Part shown: piece after piece, positions 5,605-34,374 of the stretch
How the letters are laid out: each line of letters opens with the position of its first letter
Numbering within the stretch: position 1 is the first letter of the stretch
Assembly: GCA_020437545.1 (NCBI GenBank)
Contig: JAGQWH010000020.1
Location: forward strand, 1-34,409
Source: Ignavibacteriota bacterium
GTDB lineage: Bacteria; Bacteroidota; Ignavibacteria; Tepidaquicellales; Tepidaquicellaceae
Direction of reading: 5' to 3'
DNA length: 34,409 nt
Made by a program: the position numbers and the translations under genes
Notes under the pieces: model-generated
What the model saw: the letters and a program-made list of their open reading frames with translations, nothing else
What the model was told of the DNA's origin: nothing
Databases searched by the model: none

Positions 5605-5934
5605 ATGGATGATAACCAAAAAAATTCTGAGAAAGGTAATGATAATAACTCAGAAAAGAATATCAGTTCTTTAAAAAAAATTCTTTCCAAACCGTTATTA
5701 AAAGCTGACTCTAAAGTCGCCCAGTATTCGGGATTAGGAATTTCTCTTGTAATTACGATCCTGCTATTTCTATGGGTTGGAATGTGGCTTGACGGAAAGT
5801 TTGATACCGGTGTGTTATTTACCCTGATACTTACATTTATAGGATTTGCTGCCGGTTTTTACAGCTTTTATCTGAACATAAAAAAGCTGACGGAAAAAGA
5901 TAAGATTGAAAACAAAAAATTTAATAAATACTGA
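5605..5934 (+). CDS. atpZ: AtpZ/AtpI-family ATP synthase accessory membrane protein
   Basis: This is a 109-residue protein with a charged, Asn-rich N-terminus of about 38 residues and two transmembrane helices (about 47-65 and 70-90) joined by a WLDGKFDTG loop, the usual pattern of the AtpZ/AtpI family (Pfam AtpZ-like). In other bacteria members sit first in the atp operon and are proposed to help c-ring assembly or carry Mg2+/Ca2+. It is the first gene of an eight-gene operon. Its stop TGA at 5932-5934 overlaps a possible CTG start of the next gene. No Shine-Dalgarno site is seen. Confidence 0.85.
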   Translation: MDDNQKNSEKGNDNNSEKNISSLKKILSKPLLKADSKVAQYSGLGISLVITILLFLWVGMWLDGKFDTGVLFTLILTFIGFAAGFYSFYLNIKKLTEKDKIENKKFNKY

Positions 5935-5981
5935 AATCACTAGATTTTAAAAAATTTTTAATAAGGATCGTAATATTAAGT

Positions 5982-6335
5982 GTGATCCTTTTGATTTTGG
6001 GATTTATTCTGATAAATTATCTTGGACTGGAAAATCTCACAATTCCATTAATTACAGGATGGCTTGTTTGTTTTATCAATGTAGTGATCGGCAGTCTTAT
6101 AGTAACAAGGGCATTTAAAACACAGGGAAAAGGATTTTTTAATATAGTTTTGATGAGTATGGTAGTAAGAATGTTTGCCATAGCAGGTTTGGTCTTCATT
6201 TTGGTTTACTTTTTAAAATTTGACAGAATAGGTTTCCCGGTAATATTATTCATTTTTTACTTTTTGTTTCTTGTAATGGAAATAAATTATCTTTCAGGAA
6301 ATACTTATATAAAACAAAATACGCAAAATAATTAA
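5982..6335 (+). CDS. atpI: AtpI-like ATP synthase accessory membrane protein (start uncertain)
   Basis: As given from the GTG at 5982 it has 117 residues and about four hydrophobic helices, matching the small AtpI-type proteins coded before atpB. The GTG start cuts into the first helix. Reading the same frame back to 5931 adds 17 residues with a basic amphipathic start (KSLDFKKFLIRIV) that make a normal membrane-protein N-terminus. The only start there is CTG at 5931, overlapping the atpZ stop as CTGA. An AAGGAT at 5963-5968 could serve the GTG but is rather far away. The family role is c-ring assembly; placement in the operon supports it more than sequence does. Confidence 0.75.
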   Translation: MILLILGFILINYLGLENLTIPLITGWLVCFINVVIGSLIVTRAFKTQGKGFFNIVLMSMVVRMFAIAGLVFILVYFLKFDRIGFPVILFIFYFLFLVMEINYLSGNTYIKQNTQNN

Positions 6336-7331
6336 TTGATAAAAAATTTGCATTCAAAAATCACTTCTTACACAACTAATAATAATTTTATTAACAAGTT
6401 CGCTTTTTTAATTCTATTTCTCCTATTTACTGCAGGAGGGGTAAATTCTTTTGCTCAGGAAGAGGGTCATGAATCCAATTCCGGGACAACCGAAACAGAA
6501 AAGATCGAAAAATTAGGCGAAAAGATAGAGCATGAAGCAGAAGAACAGTTCAGTGTAATTGATAAAGTAGTTGATCACCATTATATTGATTTTTACTTTC
6601 TTGGAAAGCTTCATCTTCCTCAGTTTGCACCTGTTAATGTCTTCGGAATGAATATAGATTTTTCCATCACGAAGACAACTGTCATGATGTTTCTTGCTTG
6701 CATCATCTGCATAATACTTTTATGGTTTGCAGCTTCATCAAACAAGAAGAACAAAGTTCCGAAAGGATTAGGCAACATGGTTGAATCCATTGTAGTCTTT
6801 GTAAGAGATGACATTGTCGTTCCCAATATGGGCAAAGAGGGATTGAAGCTGATGCCTTTTTTCCTGACACTGTTCTTTTTTATAATGATCGCTAACCTGA
6901 TAGGTCTGTTCCCTTTTATGGCACAGCCTACAAAGAATATTAACATTACGACCGGTCTTGCTTTGATCACATTTTTTGTTACACAGGTAAAAGGTATCCA
7001 GGCTCAGGGATTCGTAAATTATTTTAAAGGACTTGTGCCTCCCGGAGTTCCGGTTTTTGTACTTCCTATAATGGTGGTTGTAGAGTTTATAGGATTATTC
7101 ACAAAACCATTTTCACTTCTAATGAGGTTGTTTGCAAACATAACTGCAGGATCAATAATCATATTTTCATTGATAGGATTAATTTTTGTAATGGAATATG
7201 CCGGCTCTGTAATAGCAGTACCGTTCGCATTGTTCATTTATATGATGGAAATTTTCATTGCACTGCTTCAGGCTTATATATTTACAATGCTTTCAGTATT
7301 GTATATTAATATGGCAATGCATCACCATTAG
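6336..7331 (+). CDS. atpB: ATP synthase Fo subunit a
   Basis: This 331-residue subunit a forms the proton half-channels against the c-ring. The conserved arginine is R264 in SLLMRLFANITAGS, and the last-helix motif is LLQAYIFTMLSVLYI with Q312. It has a long N-terminal extension with a signal peptide (hydrophobic 22-40, ending SFAQ) and a Glu/His-rich periplasmic stretch of about 50 residues before the first core helix, as is usual in Bacteroidetes-group AtpB. The start is TTG at 6336, immediately after the TAA of the preceding gene, so translation is probably coupled. No other in-frame start gives the signal peptide. It ends in HHH. Confidence 0.96.
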   Translation: MIKNLHSKITSYTTNNNFINKFAFLILFLLFTAGGVNSFAQEEGHESNSGTTETEKIEKLGEKIEHEAEEQFSVIDKVVDHHYIDFYFLGKLHLPQFAPVNVFGMNIDFSITKTTVMMFLACIICIILLWFAASSNKKNKVPKGLGNMVESIVVFVRDDIVVPNMGKEGLKLMPFFLTLFFFIMIANLIGLFPFMAQPTKNINITTGLALITFFVTQVKGIQAQGFVNYFKGLVPPGVPVFVLPIMVVVEFIGLFTKPFSLLMRLFANITAGSIIIFSLIGLIFVMEYAGSVIAVPFALFIYMMEIFIALLQAYIFTMLSVLYINMAMHHH

Positions 7332-7371
7332 GATTTTTGATCTTTGATTTTGGATTTTGGATTTCCAAAAT
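7331..7371 (+). repeat. GATTT-rich intergenic element, copy 1
   Basis: Between atpB and atpE lies a degenerate run of GATTTTGG-type units ending in a 7-bp hairpin (ATTTTGG 7354-7360, loop ATTT, CCAAAAT 7365-7371). Similar GATTT/TTGGGATTT sequence occurs at 26565-26620 and, inverted, at 33657-33697. It is not coding. Confidence 0.55.
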
Positions 7372-7451
7372 AATAAAACATAATACAGATTTTACAAAAA
7401 ATAATATTTCAAACAAAAAATAAAATAAAACAAAAAGGAGACTAATACAAA

Positions 7452-7673
7452 ATGGATTTAGCATTTTTAGGTGCCGGTATAGGTGCCGGATTAACAGTAA
7501 TAGGAGCAGGTATCGGAATCGGTAGACTTGCAGGATCAGCTATGGAAGCCAGCGGAAGACAGCCTGAAGCATTAGGTGAGATAAGAACATCCATGATCAT
7601 TGCTGCAGCGCTTGTTGAGGGTGTTGCTTTGTTCGGACTTGTTATCTGTATTTTACTTGCTACAAAGAGCTAA
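7452..7673 (+). CDS. atpE: ATP synthase Fo subunit c
   Basis: This is a 73-residue two-helix hairpin. Helix 1 is glycine-rich (GAGIGAGLTVIGAGIGIG), the polar loop has R36-Q37-P38, and helix 2 carries the ion-binding carboxylate E56 in ALVEGVALFGLV. The Na+-type signature (Ser/Thr directly after the glutamate, as in Ilyobacter) is absent, so proton coupling is expected. A strong AGGAG at 7436-7440, 11 bases before the ATG, makes this one of only two atp genes here with a Shine-Dalgarno site, which fits the high copy number of the c-ring. Two hairpins follow the stop. Confidence 0.97.
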   Translation: MDLAFLGAGIGAGLTVIGAGIGIGRLAGSAMEASGRQPEALGEIRTSMIIAAALVEGVALFGLVICILLATKS

Positions 7674-7683
7674 TTTACGGCTG

Positions 7684-7742
7684 ATATAAATTCGTTTTAT
7701 ATATCCAGATCCAGATTTCACGGGAAATTTTTTCCTGTGAAT
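7684..7742 (+). promoter_or_regulatory. Tandem RNA hairpins between atpE and atpF
   Basis: Hairpin 1 is ATATAAA (7684-7690) with TTTATAT (7695-7701). Hairpin 2 is TTCACGGGAA (7717-7726) with TTCCTGTGAA (7732-7741), ten pairs including one G-U. No T-run follows, so it is unlikely to terminate. It could protect the 3' end of an atpE-rich processed message or lower translation of atpF. Confidence 0.5.
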
Positions 7743-7772
7743 AATAAATTTTAAATTAAATAAATAAGAATA

Positions 7773-8342
7773 ATGATTTATTACTTATCATTACTTTTTA
7801 ATTATTCATTCGTTTTTTTGCTTAGTGAACCGGGTGGTCATGATGAGAAGCCAATGCTTCTTTCCGTAAATCCTGGTCTTATTATCTGGCAGATTATTAT
7901 TTTCATACTTCTTTTATTTCTTCTTAAAAAGATCGCATGGAAACCTTTGCTTACTTCTCTTCACACAAGAGAACAGGGTATAAGGGATTCGATCGAACAG
8001 GCTGAGAAAATAAAAGTTGAATCTGAGAATTTAGTCGTTGAAAATAAAAAAATCCTCGCTGAAGCTAATGCGCAGTCAATGAAAATAATCAGCGAATCCA
8101 GAGAAGCAGCAGGAAAATTGCGTGAAGAGTTAATGGCAAAGGCGCAGGAAGATTCGAGAAAGCTTTTAGAGCAGGCAAAAATCGAGATTCAGCAGGAGAA
8201 AGAAACTGCAATGGCTGATCTGAGAAATGAAGTTTCTGATCTTGCTATTAAAGCCGCTGAAAAGATCATTAATGAAAATCTCGATGAAAATAAGCAGAAG
8301 AAAATTGTAAATGATTTCATTTCGCAGATACCGAATAATTAA
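7773..8342 (+). CDS. atpF: ATP synthase Fo subunit b
   Basis: The 189-residue peripheral-stalk subunit has one membrane helix (about 34-51, IIWQIIIFILLLFLLKKIAWKP) and then a long charged coiled-coil of about 130 residues. A short hydrophobic stretch precedes the helix (about 3-17), so the N-terminus may be longer than in the typical 160-residue protein. The ATG has no Shine-Dalgarno site and follows a hairpin. It lies between atpE and atpH as in the usual order; there is one b gene, so the stalk is probably a homodimer. Confidence 0.95.
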   Translation: MIYYLSLLFNYSFVFLLSEPGGHDEKPMLLSVNPGLIIWQIIIFILLLFLLKKIAWKPLLTSLHTREQGIRDSIEQAEKIKVESENLVVENKKILAEANAQSMKIISESREAAGKLREELMAKAQEDSRKLLEQAKIEIQQEKETAMADLRNEVSDLAIKAAEKIINENLDENKQKKIVNDFISQIPNN

Positions 8343-8363
8343 AATTAACAGAATAAATACCAA

Positions 8364-8915
8364 ATGATAACCAAAGCAGCCAGAAGATATACAACAGCAC
8401 TTTATGATGTAGCAGAAGAGCAGAATAAACTTAATGAAGTTACTACTGACATTGAAAAGATCCTTGGACTTATCAATTCAAACAGAGACCTTGAATTATT
8501 TTTTAAAAGTCCTATAGTCAGTAAAAGTAAAAAACTTGCTCTAATAAATGAAATATTTTCCGGGAATATATCCAGTCTCACACTGGATTTTATGATACTC
8601 CTTATTAACAGAAGAAGAGAATTCCTTATGCAGGGATTATTTGAGGATTTTTTAAATCTGAGAAAGGAAAAGGAAGGAATAGTAGATGTACTCGTTAAGA
8701 CTTCCGTTCCTCTAAGCGATGAAGAGAAACAGAATATGAAACAGAAGATTGATTCATACACCAAACTTAAAGGTAATATGAGTTATGAGATCGATAAGTC
8801 GATTATAGGTGGATTTGTTGCTAAAATTAATGATACAATACTTGATGCAAGTATTAAAAGACAGCTGCAGAGACTTAAGGATAAATTTAAAGAAGGTGAC
8901 TTCAGTCTTAATTAG
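8364..8915 (+). CDS. atpH: ATP synthase F1 subunit delta
   Basis: The 183-residue delta (OSCP) subunit links F1 to the b stalk. The N-terminal helical domain begins AARRYTTALYDVAEEQ, and the C-terminal part has the typical VDVLVKTSVPLSDEE and a GGFVAKINDTILDASIKRQL signature at about 148-167. It begins 21 bases after atpF without a Shine-Dalgarno site. Its TAG stop at 8913-8915 is directly followed by the first unit of an 8-bp tandem repeat, so the array abuts the end of the gene. Confidence 0.95.
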   Translation: MITKAARRYTTALYDVAEEQNKLNEVTTDIEKILGLINSNRDLELFFKSPIVSKSKKLALINEIFSGNISSLTLDFMILLINRRREFLMQGLFEDFLNLRKEKEGIVDVLVKTSVPLSDEEKQNMKQKIDSYTKLKGNMSYEIDKSIIGGFVAKINDTILDASIKRQLQRLKDKFKEGDFSLN

Positions 8916-9043
8916 TTAATTGGTTAATTGGTTAATTGGTTAATTGGTTAATTGGTTAAATGGTTAAATGGTTAAATGGTTAAATGGTTAAATGGTTAAT
9001 TGGTTAATTGGTTAAATGGTTAAATGGTTAAATGGTTAAATTG
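8916..9043 (+). repeat. 8-bp tandem repeat (TTAAWTGG)16 inside the atp operon
   Basis: Sixteen contiguous 8-bp units fill the atpH-atpA gap. In order: five TTAATTGG, five TTAAATGG, two TTAATTGG, three TTAAATGG, and a last degenerate TTAAATTG. The period of eight puts TAA in every forward frame, so the array cannot be coding. It ends 43 bases before the AGGAG of atpA. Such arrays expand and contract by slipped-strand replication. Confidence 0.98.
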
Positions 9044-9100
9044 AAGTTTTAGAAATATAAATTTTATAAATAAGAATAAATCATTCAGGAGAAATAAAAA

Positions 9101-10627
9101 ATGGCAGAAGTAAAATCAGATGAGATTTCCGCGATACTCAGAAAACAGTTATCCGGATTTGAAACGGAAGTAGATATTTTTGATGTTGGAACGGTCTTGT
9201 ATGTTGGTGACGGTGTAGCTAGAGTTTACGGTTTATCAAAGTGCGAAGCAGGAGAGCTTGTAGAATTTCCGAATAATGTTTTCGGTATTGCACTTAACCT
9301 TGAAGAAGATAACGTAGGTTGCATTCTATTTGGTGAATCATCTCTTGTAAAAGAAGGTGATCTTGTTAAAAGGACAGGCAGAATTGCTTCCATGCCGGTC
9401 GGTGAACAAATGCTTGGAAGAGTAATTAATCCACTTGGTCAGCCGATTGACGGAAAAGGTGAGATTCATACTGATAAGTTCTCCCCTCTTGAAAGAAAAG
9501 CTCTTGGTGTTATTCAGAGACAGCCTGTAAAGGAACCATTACAGACTGGTATAAAAGCTGTTGATGCTATGATCCCGATCGGAAGAGGACAGAGAGAATT
9601 GATCATTGGTGACAGACAGACCGGAAAGACTGCTGTAGCTATTGATGCGATAATTAATCAGAAGGGTAAAGGAGTTTATTGTATATATGTGGCTATCGGT
9701 CAGAAAGGTTCGACTGTAGCTCAGGTTGTAAAAAGTCTGCAGGATGCAGGAGCTATGGAATTCACGACAGTGATTGCCGCAACTGCTTCAGATCCGGCTC
9801 CTCTTCAGTATATAGCACCGTTTGCAGGAGCTACACTTGGAGAGTATTTCCGGGATTCAAGCAGACATGCACTGGTAGTTTATGATGATCTTACAAAGCA
9901 GGCAGCTTCTTACAGAGAGGTTTCATTATTATTAAGAAGACCCCCGGGTCGTGAAGCATATCCGGGAGACGTTTTCTATCTTCACTCTAGATTACTCGAA
10001 AGAGCTTCCAAATTATCAGATGATCTTGGCGGTGGAAGTCTGACCGCATTACCTATCATTGAAACACAGGCAGGTGACGTATCAGCTTACATTCCTACAA
10101 ACGTAATTTCCATTACTGACGGACAGATCTATCTCCAGTCAAATTTATTCAACTCAGGTATCAGACCTGCTATTGACGTAGGTATTTCGGTATCAAGGGT
10201 GGGTGGTAATGCTCAGATCAAAGCAATGAAAAAAATTGCAGGTACTTTAAGACTTGACCTTGCGCAATACAGAGAGCTTGAAGCATTCTCCAGATTCGGC
10301 TCGGATCTTGATAAGGCAACTATGCAGCAGCTCAGAAGAGGTGAAAGATTAATTGAGATACTTAAGCAGAAACAGTATTCACCAATGCCTGTTGAAAATC
10401 AGGTTCTGATAATCTATGCAGCTACAAAAGGTTATTTAGATCAGATCCCTGTCGAGCATATTCAGAGATATCAGGAAGAACTTTTCTCACAGGTTGAAAA
10501 TCTTCATGCGGATATTCTATCAAGTATCAGAGAGACAAAAGATCTTACAGCAGAAAACAGTGAGAAGATGAATACTGTTTTGAAAGACTTTACGGAGAAA
10601 TTCAAATCTTCCGTGACTGTAATCTGA
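9101..10627 (+). CDS. atpA: ATP synthase F1 subunit alpha
   Basis: This 508-residue non-catalytic nucleotide-binding subunit has a P-loop GDRQTGKT at 170-177, the signature [14 protein letters not shown] at about 356-369 with the arginine finger R366, and full-length N- and C-terminal domains. It is present as three copies alternating with beta, which is not encoded in this window. An AGGAG at 9087-9091, 9 bases before the ATG, fixes the start and is the second of only two Shine-Dalgarno sites in the operon. The tandem 8-bp array lies just upstream. Confidence 0.98.
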
Positions 10628-10770
10628 TTTAAATGATGTTATGATAAAGATTTGTTTGATGAAATGTAACAGATTTTTTACAAAATGAAGAGATGAGTTG
10701 ATGATAATTTTTAAGTTAATAATATTCAGATAAATTATTAACTGCTAACTACAAAAAATTAACTAATAAA

Positions 10771-11649
10771 TTGGCTACACTTAAAGAATTAAAAGTCAGG
10801 ATTGGCGGTGTCAAAGGAACACAGAAGATCACCAAAGCTATGAAAATGGTGGCTTCTGCTAAGTTCAGAAGAGCGCAGGAAAGAATCATTACAATGAGAC
10901 CTTATGCTCATAAGATCAATGAACTTCTCAGTCAGCTTGTAGATGCTGCCGGAGAGGAAGCCGAAAAGATCATGACACAGAGGGAAGTTAAAAACAAACT
11001 TGTTGTAGTAGTTTCTGCTGACAGAGGTCTCGCCGGTTCCTTTAATACTAACATTATTCGTTACGCTTCAAATTATATAAATACTCTTGGAGCAGATACC
11101 AAAGTTATCACTGTCGGAAGAAAATGCACCGATGCATTTAAGAAAAAAGATGTAAATTTAATAAAGACTTATATAAACTTATTTAATGATCTTACTCTTG
11201 AAGTTTCAAATGATATTGTGAATAACATAATAGACGGATATGAAAAGAAATTATACGATGGCGTGGATATTGTTTATTCTAAATTCATTTCTGTTGTAAG
11301 ACAGGAAACTGCTATGGAGCAATTTCTTCCAATAAAAAAGATTGATGATATAAAAGAAAATACAGATAAAGAAGAAAAGAAAAACACAGATTATATTTTT
11401 GAACCGAATGCTGTTGATATTCTGAAAGTACTAATCCCTAAACAATACAGGATCCAGTTCTGGAAGATCCTTCTGGAATCAAACGCAGCAGAGCAGGCTG
11501 CAAGAATGACAGCTATGGAAACTGCAACCAAGAATGCTTCTGATCTGCTGGCTGAACTTGAATTATCGTACAATCAGGCAAGACAGGCTGCTATTACCAA
11601 AGAGATCCTTGAGATCGTCGGCGGTGCTGAAGCATTAAAGGATGCCTGA
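10771..11649 (+). CDS. atpG: ATP synthase F1 subunit gamma
   Basis: This is the 292-residue central-stalk subunit. The N-terminal helix has the family pattern ATLKELKVRIGGVKGTQKIT followed by KAMKMVASAKFRRAQ, and the C-terminal helix ends LSYNQARQAAITKEILEIVGGAEAL. The start is TTG at 10771: the conserved N-terminus begins exactly there and no ATG lies nearby. A charged KENTDKEEKKNTDY insertion near 190-207 is typical of the variable region. It is the last gene of the operon, with a terminator 27 bases after its stop. atpD and atpC do not follow and must lie elsewhere, as is common in Bacteroidetes and Chlorobi. Confidence 0.97.
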   Translation: MATLKELKVRIGGVKGTQKITKAMKMVASAKFRRAQERIITMRPYAHKINELLSQLVDAAGEEAEKIMTQREVKNKLVVVVSADRGLAGSFNTNIIRYASNYINTLGADTKVITVGRKCTDAFKKKDVNLIKTYINLFNDLTLEVSNDIVNNIIDGYEKKLYDGVDIVYSKFISVVRQETAMEQFLPIKKIDDIKENTDKEEKKNTDYIFEPNAVDILKVLIPKQYRIQFWKILLESNAAEQAARMTAMETATKNASDLLAELELSYNQARQAAITKEILEIVGGAEALKDA

Positions 11650-11730: not shown

Positions 11731-13023
11731 TTAAAGTTCAGTTTCCCAGAGAATTCTTCCCGACTCCGTATCAATGCATACTGCCCTGAGCATTGACATA
11801 ATAATTAGTTTTCCATTACCCATCAAAGCTCTCTTTGTTCTGAAATCCGGATCACCCTTTGAAAATACTACATCAAAAGCAGATCTGTCCATTCCCTTTT
11901 CAGGATCCACATATATATTACTTAACTCTGTCTGCCATATCTGAGAAATATCAGAATCTTTACTCAGTCTGATCTTACTGATAAGCACTTTAGCCTGATC
12001 AGTAACATCTGTCTGACTAAGTATAAAAATACCATTATCTTTTGTCATAATTAAAAAGCTTTCATTTCCGGCTGCTCTCTTTATTTTATCGTTAGCATAT
12101 TTTATTTTTCTTTCAAGATTCTGAATATCCCTCTGGGCATATTTAATTACCATTGAATTTTCATTAGGTAATTTTTTGATTGAATCTATCTGAAGCTCAT
12201 ATTCTCTTATTTCATCATAAAAAGGTTTAAGATAATCATTTCCTGAGATAGAGGGATCTGATTGCACAGAACTCTCAATTATCTCACCTTTTAAAAAAGA
12301 AACATCCTTAAATTCTTTACCGTCATATTCGATATAATTTCTCGGACTACCCGTTAATGACATCCTTTTTTCCGGTGTGATGTTTACTGAATTTGTAAGA
12401 CAATTGTTATCAATTTTAAAATCCACCAGTAAATCTTCTGTCTTTTCAGCTTTCAGTGAAACAGGATCTATTAAATAAAGGAATCCCGAATTATCTGAAA
12501 CAACGGGTTTATTTTCCAGTGAATTAAATCCGTAATATTTTACTATACTGTTCCATTCAGGCTGACTTAAATTTCCTTTAAGGAACGGGTTAATCTCCGT
12601 AATTTTATCCTGAGAAATAATAACATCCAGTGTCTTCGGATCTCTTGCATGAAAACCAAGTGCCGGGTCAACACTCTTATACCAAAGCAAACCTTTTGTG
12701 TAACCTATAAATTTACACTCGCCGGTTTTACGATCACCAAATTCTATTCTCTTTATCAATTGTCCGGTATTAATATCATATGAAGATAATCTGTACTCCG
12801 TAAAACCCGTAATCTGTCTGATCCCGTTATTGTCGGATTTTGATGTAGCCTGAAAGATCTCCTCTTTTGAGATCAGAAAATCTTCACCGTCTGATTCAGC
12901 TATAATAAATTCAATAATGTCATCAGCATTATCTTTCATTACATTTTTCTTCATAGGATTACATGATGAAAACAGCATAGCTGAAAATATTATCAGAGAA
13001 AAATATATAAAGGTGTGCTTCAT
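11731..13023 (-). CDS. Lipoprotein with PQQ-like propeller features, function unknown
   Basis: I do not recognise a named family. The 430-residue protein has a lipoprotein signal peptide ending LFSSC (cysteine at 21). The mature part contains repeats with propeller character, such as SSYDINTGQLIKRIEFG, LYLIDPVSLKAEKT and the C-terminal VCIDTESGRILWETEL, the last closely like a PQQ-enzyme/BamB repeat. A charged helical stretch (about 268-322, rich in E, K and R) interrupts them. It is probably a periplasm-facing propeller anchored by lipid, perhaps as a scaffold or sensor. It is a single gene, converging on atpG, and is separated from the efflux operon upstream by that operon's terminator. Confidence 0.75.
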   Translation of the reverse strand: MKHTFIYFSLIIFSAMLFSSCNPMKKNVMKDNADDIIEFIIAESDGEDFLISKEEIFQATSKSDNNGIRQITGFTEYRLSSYDINTGQLIKRIEFGDRKTGECKFIGYTKGLLWYKSVDPALGFHARDPKTLDVIISQDKITEINPFLKGNLSQPEWNSIVKYYGFNSLENKPVVSDNSGFLYLIDPVSLKAEKTEDLLVDFKIDNNCLTNSVNITPEKRMSLTGSPRNYIEYDGKEFKDVSFLKGEIIESSVQSDPSISGNDYLKPFYDEIREYELQIDSIKKLPNENSMVIKYAQRDIQNLERKIKYANDKIKRAAGNESFLIMTKDNGIFILSQTDVTDQAKVLISKIRLSKDSDISQIWQTELSNIYVDPEKGMDRSAFDVVFSKGDPDFRTKRALMGNGKLIIMSMLRAVCIDTESGRILWETEL

Positions 13024-33697: not shown

Positions 33698-34071
33698 GGT
33701 CGATGACTTAAACAAACTCAATTGAATTCGAGACGTTGGCGTTTTAAAAAGTTTTGTGTATCCGATCTTTAAAGTTTAAAACACTCGTTATGCAAATTTT
33801 TTGGCCACAACAACAAAACCCCTGACTTGATCCGAACCCGGTTAATAAATAAACCTGACTAATAACTTCCCTCCGGCGAAGTCTCACGTATTTCGGACTC
33901 CAGCAAAAAAACATTTTATTACTTATCTCTTCCTTTCTATCCTTAAAAAAAATTTAAAGGAAAAGACATAAATTAGGTTTCAAATTTACGGAACATTTTT
34001 TGCAAACCGAAGTAGAACATCTTCAAAGCAAGCATCTGAAAATGAAAAATATGGAAACCCGATTAGAATAT
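33698..34071. other. Intergenic stretch without a recognised gene
   Basis: No convincing gene, RNA or known element is visible between the repeat after tRNA-Thr and the 21-bp minisatellite. The one structure I see is a small inverted repeat, GTTTTAAA (33741-33748) with TTTAAAAC (33775-33782). Base composition around 33790-33900 is richer in G and C than most intergenic sequence here, so it may be the remnant of a lost gene, but no frame resembles a known protein. Confidence 0.6.
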
Positions 34072-34374
34072 AACCGAAGCAAAATCAAATATGGTCAGGG
34101 CGAAATCAAATATGACCGGAGCAAAATCAAATATGGTCAGAGCGAAATCAAATATGGTCAGAGCGAAATCAAAAGTGACCGGAGCAAAATCAAATATGGT
34201 CAGAGCGAAATCAAATATTCTCAGAGCGAAATCAAATATGACCGGAGCGAAATCAAATATGACCGGAGCGAAATCAAATATGACCGAAGCGAAATCAAAT
34301 ATGCTCAGAGCAAAATCAAATATGCTCAGAGCGAAATCAAAAGTGTATTATACAAAACTATAAAATCACATTAG
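34000..34374 (+). CDS. Possible repeat protein of heptapeptide units (doubtful)
   Basis: A 124-codon frame runs from TTG at 34000 (or ATG at 34042) to TAG at 34372-34374. Its body is thirteen heptapeptides of the form D/G/S/A-R/Q-S-E/K-I-K-Y. It is not like a known family, and the I-x-Y spacing is not a coiled-coil heptad. No Shine-Dalgarno site precedes either start. Because the DNA period of 21 is a multiple of three, an open frame is expected from the repeat alone; a second forward frame is open too. Changes between units are largely at the first two codons. I therefore regard coding as possible but unproved. Confidence 0.25.
   Translation: MQTEVEHLQSKHLKMKNMETRLEYNRSKIKYGQGEIKYDRSKIKYGQSEIKYGQSEIKSDRSKIKYGQSEIKYSQSEIKYDRSEIKYDRSEIKYDRSEIKYAQSKIKYAQSEIKSVLYKTIKSH
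34072..34344 (+). repeat. 21-bp minisatellite, 13 units
   Basis: Thirteen contiguous 21-bp units each read, in one frame, x-R/Q-S-E/K-I-K-Y. The last nine or so bases (AAATCAAATAT) are nearly constant, and the first six differ between two classes, GACCGG or CGA variants and GGT/GCT/TCT followed by CAG. Units 3 and 6 are identical and units 4 and 7 are identical, so a 63-bp higher-order block (one class-1 unit and two class-2 units) has been duplicated; units 9 and 10 are also identical. Two units (5 and 13) end AAAAGT in place of AAATAT. Confidence 0.95.

Follow-up and report, generated by a model that had tools for sequence, protein, structure and literature searches.

Many dispersed intergenic arrays within one genome are known from the cyanobacterial STRR (short tandemly repeated repetitive) heptamers. 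The long simple sequence repeats (LSSR) of prokaryotes have units of 5-11 nt, and slippage was proposed for their origin (Mrazek et al. 2007, summarised in PMC4679880). The closest described population is that of the TAACTGA heptamers of Beggiatoaceae. These direct repeats occur in marine Beggiatoaceae, in Cyanobacteria and in some Bacteroidetes (MacGregor 2015, PMC4679880); they are 7 bp long, mostly present in 2-6 copies and found in forward orientation just upstream of start codons (PMC4679880). In a tree-of-life survey, repeats around bacterial genes were weakly enriched (PMC12699852).

The array studied here lies between atpH and atpA in the window, i.e. the whole stretch of 34,409 nucleotides that was analysed (Table 1). 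The first-pass annotation had described sixteen contiguous units that start directly after the atpH stop codon, end 43 bases before the Shine-Dalgarno site of atpA and lie in blocks of 5, 5, 2 and 3. The array is real, and its start, the 43-base gap, the blocks and both gene names were confirmed, but only 15 of the units are perfect. These read (TTAATTGG)5 (TTAAATGG)5 (TTAATTGG)2 (TTAAATGG)3 and their sense strand is the C-less strand. With a TRF score of 205 the array stood far above all other repeats with a period below 20 in the window. The C-terminus of atpH (LN*) is the native end, common to array-free relatives, and the imperfect unit that contains its stop codon, which the first-pass annotation does not mention, is likely the seed or the junction of the array.

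Table 1. Features at the atpH-atpA junction of the window
Feature	Position	Strand	Basis or remark
atpH (delta/OSCP subunit)	8364..8915	+	Pfam PF00213, E=1.2e-44; array anchored at its TAG stop, 8913-8915
Final 8 bases of atpH, TTAATTAG (two terminal codons plus stop), which form an in-register imperfect unit	8908..8915	+	Sequence
15 perfect TTAAWTGG units, blocks x5, x5, x2, x3, directly 3' of the atpH stop	8916..9035	+	Sequence, TRF
Sixteenth unit TTAAATTG, imperfect, 3' edge of the array	9036..9043	+	Sequence
57-nt leader between array end and atpA start, with AGGAG at 9087-9091; largely kept in congeners	9044..9100	+	By-eye alignment of L041, L042 and L043; folding
atpA (alpha subunit)	9101..10627	+	Pfam PF00006/PF00306/PF02874

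The gene order of the cluster was read by Pfam as atpB-E-F-H-A-G with an ATPase_gene1-type protein ahead. The cluster (5605-11649) ends with atpG, atpD and atpC are absent from it, and the ORF call that follows (11731-13023) lies on the opposite strand. A 21-bp (7-codon) tandem repeat of about 12.6 copies is located at 34078-34341 near the contig end, where it overlaps the ORF at 34000-34374.

The array belongs to the broad class of the LSSR, with which it has several traits in common. As in the summary of that work, the units are 7-9 nt long, the pure runs go beyond chance (far beyond it for the 15 perfect 8-bp units here), non-triplet units are kept outside genes and the genomes are phylogenetically scattered; a change of length between close relatives was also observed, with differences in length and unit at orthologous sites of three congeners. 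Unlike the LSSR as described there, the 8-bp arrays are nearly all of one unit, and arrays of this genome are anchored at start or stop codons with a fixed polarity. With the TAACTGA repeats the arrays share the many dispersed intergenic sites, one short unit that carries a stop codon, the orientation bias and contigs that end in the repeat. The atp array differs from them in its unit of 8 bp (TTAATTGG or TTAAATGG), its 16 copies and its position, from the atpH stop to a point 57 nt ahead of the atpA start. The STRR are likewise dispersed intergenic short tandem arrays, but differ in unit length and host. A slippage-prone tandem tract is common to the atp array and to contingency-locus microsatellites; unlike these, the atp array shows no evidence of a promoter, in-frame or expression effect. 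A word search of the literature for the repeat unit gave chance matches only.

The size of the array population was determined with TRF in the window and 60 further contigs or stretches of the same genome, which cover 735 kb (0.74 Mb) of 4.3 Mb; overlapping calls were merged. This sample contained 148 arrays with units of 7-9 bp (101, 27 and 20 of 7, 8 and 9 bp), whereas at the same score threshold no array with a period up to 6 and almost none with a period of 10-13 was found. An unbiased subset of 532 kb held 71, 6 and 11 arrays of 7, 8 and 9 bp, from which about 570, 48 and 89 are extrapolated for the genome. The arrays are mostly intergenic (111/148), with 24 at contig ends and only 13 mainly within called ORFs, although the sequence is 87% coding. 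Nearly all 8-bp arrays consist of TTAATTGG, 23 of the 27 by TRF consensus plus the atp array itself, whereas several units recur among the 7-bp and 9-bp arrays. In the whole assembly, TTAAWTGGTTAAWTGG occurs 244 times, as arrays on many contigs and several times at contig ends. The array had been called unusual for a core operon. This did not hold, as numerous other intergenic gaps contain arrays of this 8-bp unit or of one of many 7- and 9-bp units; the first-pass annotation had itself named arrays in many other gaps as evidence against a regulatory role, and several hundred are estimated genome-wide.

Many contigs terminate in a 7-9-bp array (e.g. C10, C52, C135 and C146); this applies to 13 of the 79 contig ends of the unbiased sample, and the arrays therefore fragment the assembly. 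The array at L091:6442-6807 is 366 bp long with about 52 copies of the 7-bp unit CTATGAG, and the same gap has two further 7-bp arrays with other units. The palindrome TCCGCCNNGGCGGA is present in 98 genome copies (e.g. L094:4120, L095:3328, L108:9526 and L114:4182). In the sample, 11 of its 25 copies were at most 15 bp from a 7-9-bp array, compared to 3.4 for random intergenic placement (maximum 9 in 200 trials), and the palindrome often interrupts an array that goes on to its left and right, as though it had been inserted there. The loss of mismatch repair as a cause of the arrays was rejected: a MutS_V match above the cut-off was found in an 874-aa open frame of this genome, and similar frames are present in congeners. 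In any case, loops of 7-9 nt evade this kind of repair.

The occurrence of the unit in relatives was then followed with the trimer (TTAATTGG)3. It was present in both other species of the genus that were examined, but in none of 17 other genera of the family and order and in no other of 395 genomes drawn across the phylum. At the atpH-atpA gap, where the first-pass annotation had advised counting units in related genomes, the 16 units found here face about six degenerate units in the congener G001 and at most one or two vestigial units (TTAATTAATTGATTGATTGAAG) in the congener G002. In the other genera of the family examined the gap measures 3-149 bases and the array is absent. The stop codon of atpH is TAG in the two array-bearing species and TAA in the array-free congener, in which a TTGATTGATTG-like seed directly follows the stop and the downstream sequence is retained.

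Similar turnover was observed at other sites, where arrays were gained, lost, shortened or had their unit replaced between congeners. At L101, 12 units here correspond to one or two in G002; at L106, a TTAATTGG array here is matched by a TACCTAA array at the same gene end in G002; and at L095, some 7- and 9-bp arrays are common to congeners with changed copy number. The densities per 100 kb of 7-, 8- and 9-bp arrays were 13.0, 1.1 and 2.1 here and 3.8, 2.4 and 0.5 in G002, whose sample includes three contigs picked for holding arrays, and were near zero in five other genomes. TTAATTGG arrays are also found in scattered other bacteria. A deep conservation at one site in Lacihabitans, Leadbetterella and Bacteroidetes B1 was rejected, as flanks of 95-99% identity point to recent common descent. 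A better case of an array that persisted at one orthologous stop over a longer time is given by L018 and L027: the TTAATTGG arrays of these two genomes, 4 and 9 units long, start at one orthologous gene end, and the upstream DNA is only 77% identical. Two viral contigs (L224 and L225) contain (TTAATTGG)3.

We consider it likely that the atp array belongs to this genome-wide population of 7-9-bp arrays, having grown in place with fast turnover and without a job specific to the ATP synthase. A short TTAATT- or TTGATTG-like sequence at the atpH stop codon would have served as the seed, and replication slippage together with local block duplication would have extended it. Growth in place is supported by the block structure and by the seed-like sequence in G002; the repeated local expansion that had been deduced from the blocks agrees with the unit counts of the three congeners. 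The array would persist because it lies entirely after the native stop codon and leaves the atpA leader, which the congeners also keep, untouched. Its effect on atpA would then be small, if any, and the array is probably a slippage-prone simple-sequence tract close to neutrality, more a side product of the way in which such repeats originate than a device for the control of the ATP synthase. The neutral option that had been left open in the first-pass annotation thus fits best. A regulator specific to atp was rejected on two grounds: many other arrays exist, and at this site the congeners have an eroded array or none.

Slippage from random seeds alone does not predict that the arrays begin at gene edges with one polarity, nor that one unit dominates the 8-bp arrays or that TAG stops are enriched. 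These features would be expected from a polar copying mechanism, in which a 3' DNA end at a gene edge (e.g. ...TTAG-3') anneals by a few bases to an array that exists at another site, copies part of this array and is rejoined without homology. The outcome would be a 5' junction fixed in the register of the stop codon, a free 3' edge and the spread of one unit through the genome. The edge analysis used gene calls from a simple greedy ORF caller and covered the 95 intergenic arrays that have a gene on either side; 68 of these wholly lack C on one strand. Along the C-poor strand, 44 of 94 arrays had their 5' edge no more than 10 nt from a stop codon, and another 14 had it at most 10 nt from a called start codon and pointed away from that gene. 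Taken together, 58 of the 94 5' edges but only 5 of the 3' edges were that close to a gene boundary (Fisher P=2e-17; all P values for polarity are descriptive, since the tests were chosen after the data had been inspected). The start-codon side is the weaker one, because a G-less strand contains no start codons and an ORF caller tends to put starts just after it.

Between -9 and +5 nt of the stop codon, the C-poor strand was sense in 38 arrays and antisense in 1, whereas more than 20 nt from the stop the bias was reversed (40 antisense, 8 sense). Of the 51 arrays at tandem junctions that leave 40 nt or more up to the next start, 35 were no further than 10 nt from the stop; uniform placement in the permissible part of the gap would put 12.3 there. 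Two arrays follow apparent tRNA 3' ends in the same sense, as read by eye. The stop codons matched the repeat one period downstream at 0.59 of the positions, compared to 0.16-0.38 off register; the codons upstream of the stop showed no such in-register match. TAG was enriched three-fold, with 19 of 38 array-anchoring stops compared to 83 of the 532 other stops (P=3e-6). As a source of seeds, stop-like triplets that follow ordinary stops were rejected, since their frequency falls from 0.088 to 0.073 and the enrichment is slight at most. A link to type-9-secretion C-terminal-domain genes, prompted by repeated C-termini, was not upheld either (8 of 44, P=0.06). Type-9-secretion tails at the C-termini of its proteins, together with the make-up of the phylum sample, suggest that the genome belongs to Bacteroidota in the broad sense.

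Gene ends created falsely by stop codons within the arrays do not, from the sequence comparisons, appear to account for the polarity: the stop was native by its homologues at 22 of 26 testable gene ends (21 sense, 1 antisense), and the 13 coding arrays are too few to conceal an equal antisense class. The asymmetry of the edges was found again in G002 (9 versus 2 of 19, P=0.03) and in the scattered TTAATTGG arrays of other bacteria (16 versus 3 of 26, P=4e-4; 13 versus 3 of 23, P=0.005, with repeated sites collapsed), where the search pattern fixed the base before the first unit and may favour certain edges. In G357, a member of another genus with 7-bp arrays, the asymmetry was not significant (4 versus 2 of 12). 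The arrays are of a known broad kind; for their polarity at gene edges, and its anchoring at stops, we did not find a description in the few openly accessible papers examined.

Polar copying would explain both the polarity and the shared unit, and growth in place explains neither. Against the copying mechanism stand the array-free congener, whose seed and retained downstream sequence at atpH favour growth in place, the result in G357 and the lack of a 5'-to-3' purity gradient inside the arrays (P=0.71), by which directional growth read as such a gradient was also rejected. We regard polar copying as rather unlikely. Somewhat better placed, but still unlikely, is the more general reading in which the short tandem arrays of this lineage and the TTAATTGG arrays of unrelated bacteria owe their origin or upkeep to a polar process leading outward from gene ends, mostly stop codons. 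Such a process would run along the C-less strand and rewrite the stop codon into the register of the repeat.

An effect at the level of the RNA was evaluated by folding. The sense transcript of the array is predicted to form a hairpin of A-U and G-U pairs with an MFE of -28.4 kcal/mol for 144 nt (z -6.2), and eight ideal units reach z -8.9. An intercistronic element was considered on this basis, in which the (UUAAUUGG)n hairpin would alter mRNA processing, stability or ribosome transit from atpH to atpA. The sense strand is the folding orientation, whereas the other strand has C-A mismatches, and the TTAATTGG and AATACTC families are predicted to fold well as C-less RNA. However, the stop-anchored families AAAGTTG, AAAAGTT, AACTATC and AAAAATC fold hardly better than their shuffles, so that a hairpin was rejected as the general reason for the position of the arrays. 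The TTAAATGG units lower the pairing, and the short degenerate array of G001 and the vestigial units of G002 also speak against an element of this kind. A masking of the atpA ribosome site was rejected, since its predicted accessibility does not change between presence and absence of the array (0.87 versus 0.86). Given this result, the kept leader and the eroded or absent array of the relatives, the influence on atpA that had been proposed earlier is not supported. A terminator or promoter within the array was rejected as well: no intrinsic terminator (GC-rich stem and T run) was found at 8700-9200, and no promoter above chance in the array region. In these models an RNA effect of the sense-transcript hairpin is possible, but a dedicated element between atpH and atpA seems very improbable.

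Least credible is a phase-variable or tuning switch, in which changes in unit number would reversibly adjust the atpH-atpA spacing or coupling: a long, pure, slippage-prone tract in an operon that differs in length between species would suit it, but the array lies 43 bases ahead of the Shine-Dalgarno site and outside promoter and codons, a promoter there is not beyond chance, and similar arrays follow genes of all sorts, so that nothing here indicates selection for variable expression.

In conclusion, a tunable spacer in the ATP synthase operon is not supported, and its place is taken by a testable genome-wide rule on where the arrays start and which way they face. If annotated, long-read genomes bear the rule out, it limits the ways in which simple repeats can be born in prokaryotes and cautions against reading regulation into any single array of this kind. 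The 7-9-bp arrays also break assemblies. An outward polar process, if true, would give these repeats a directed origin instead of one from random slippage seeds.
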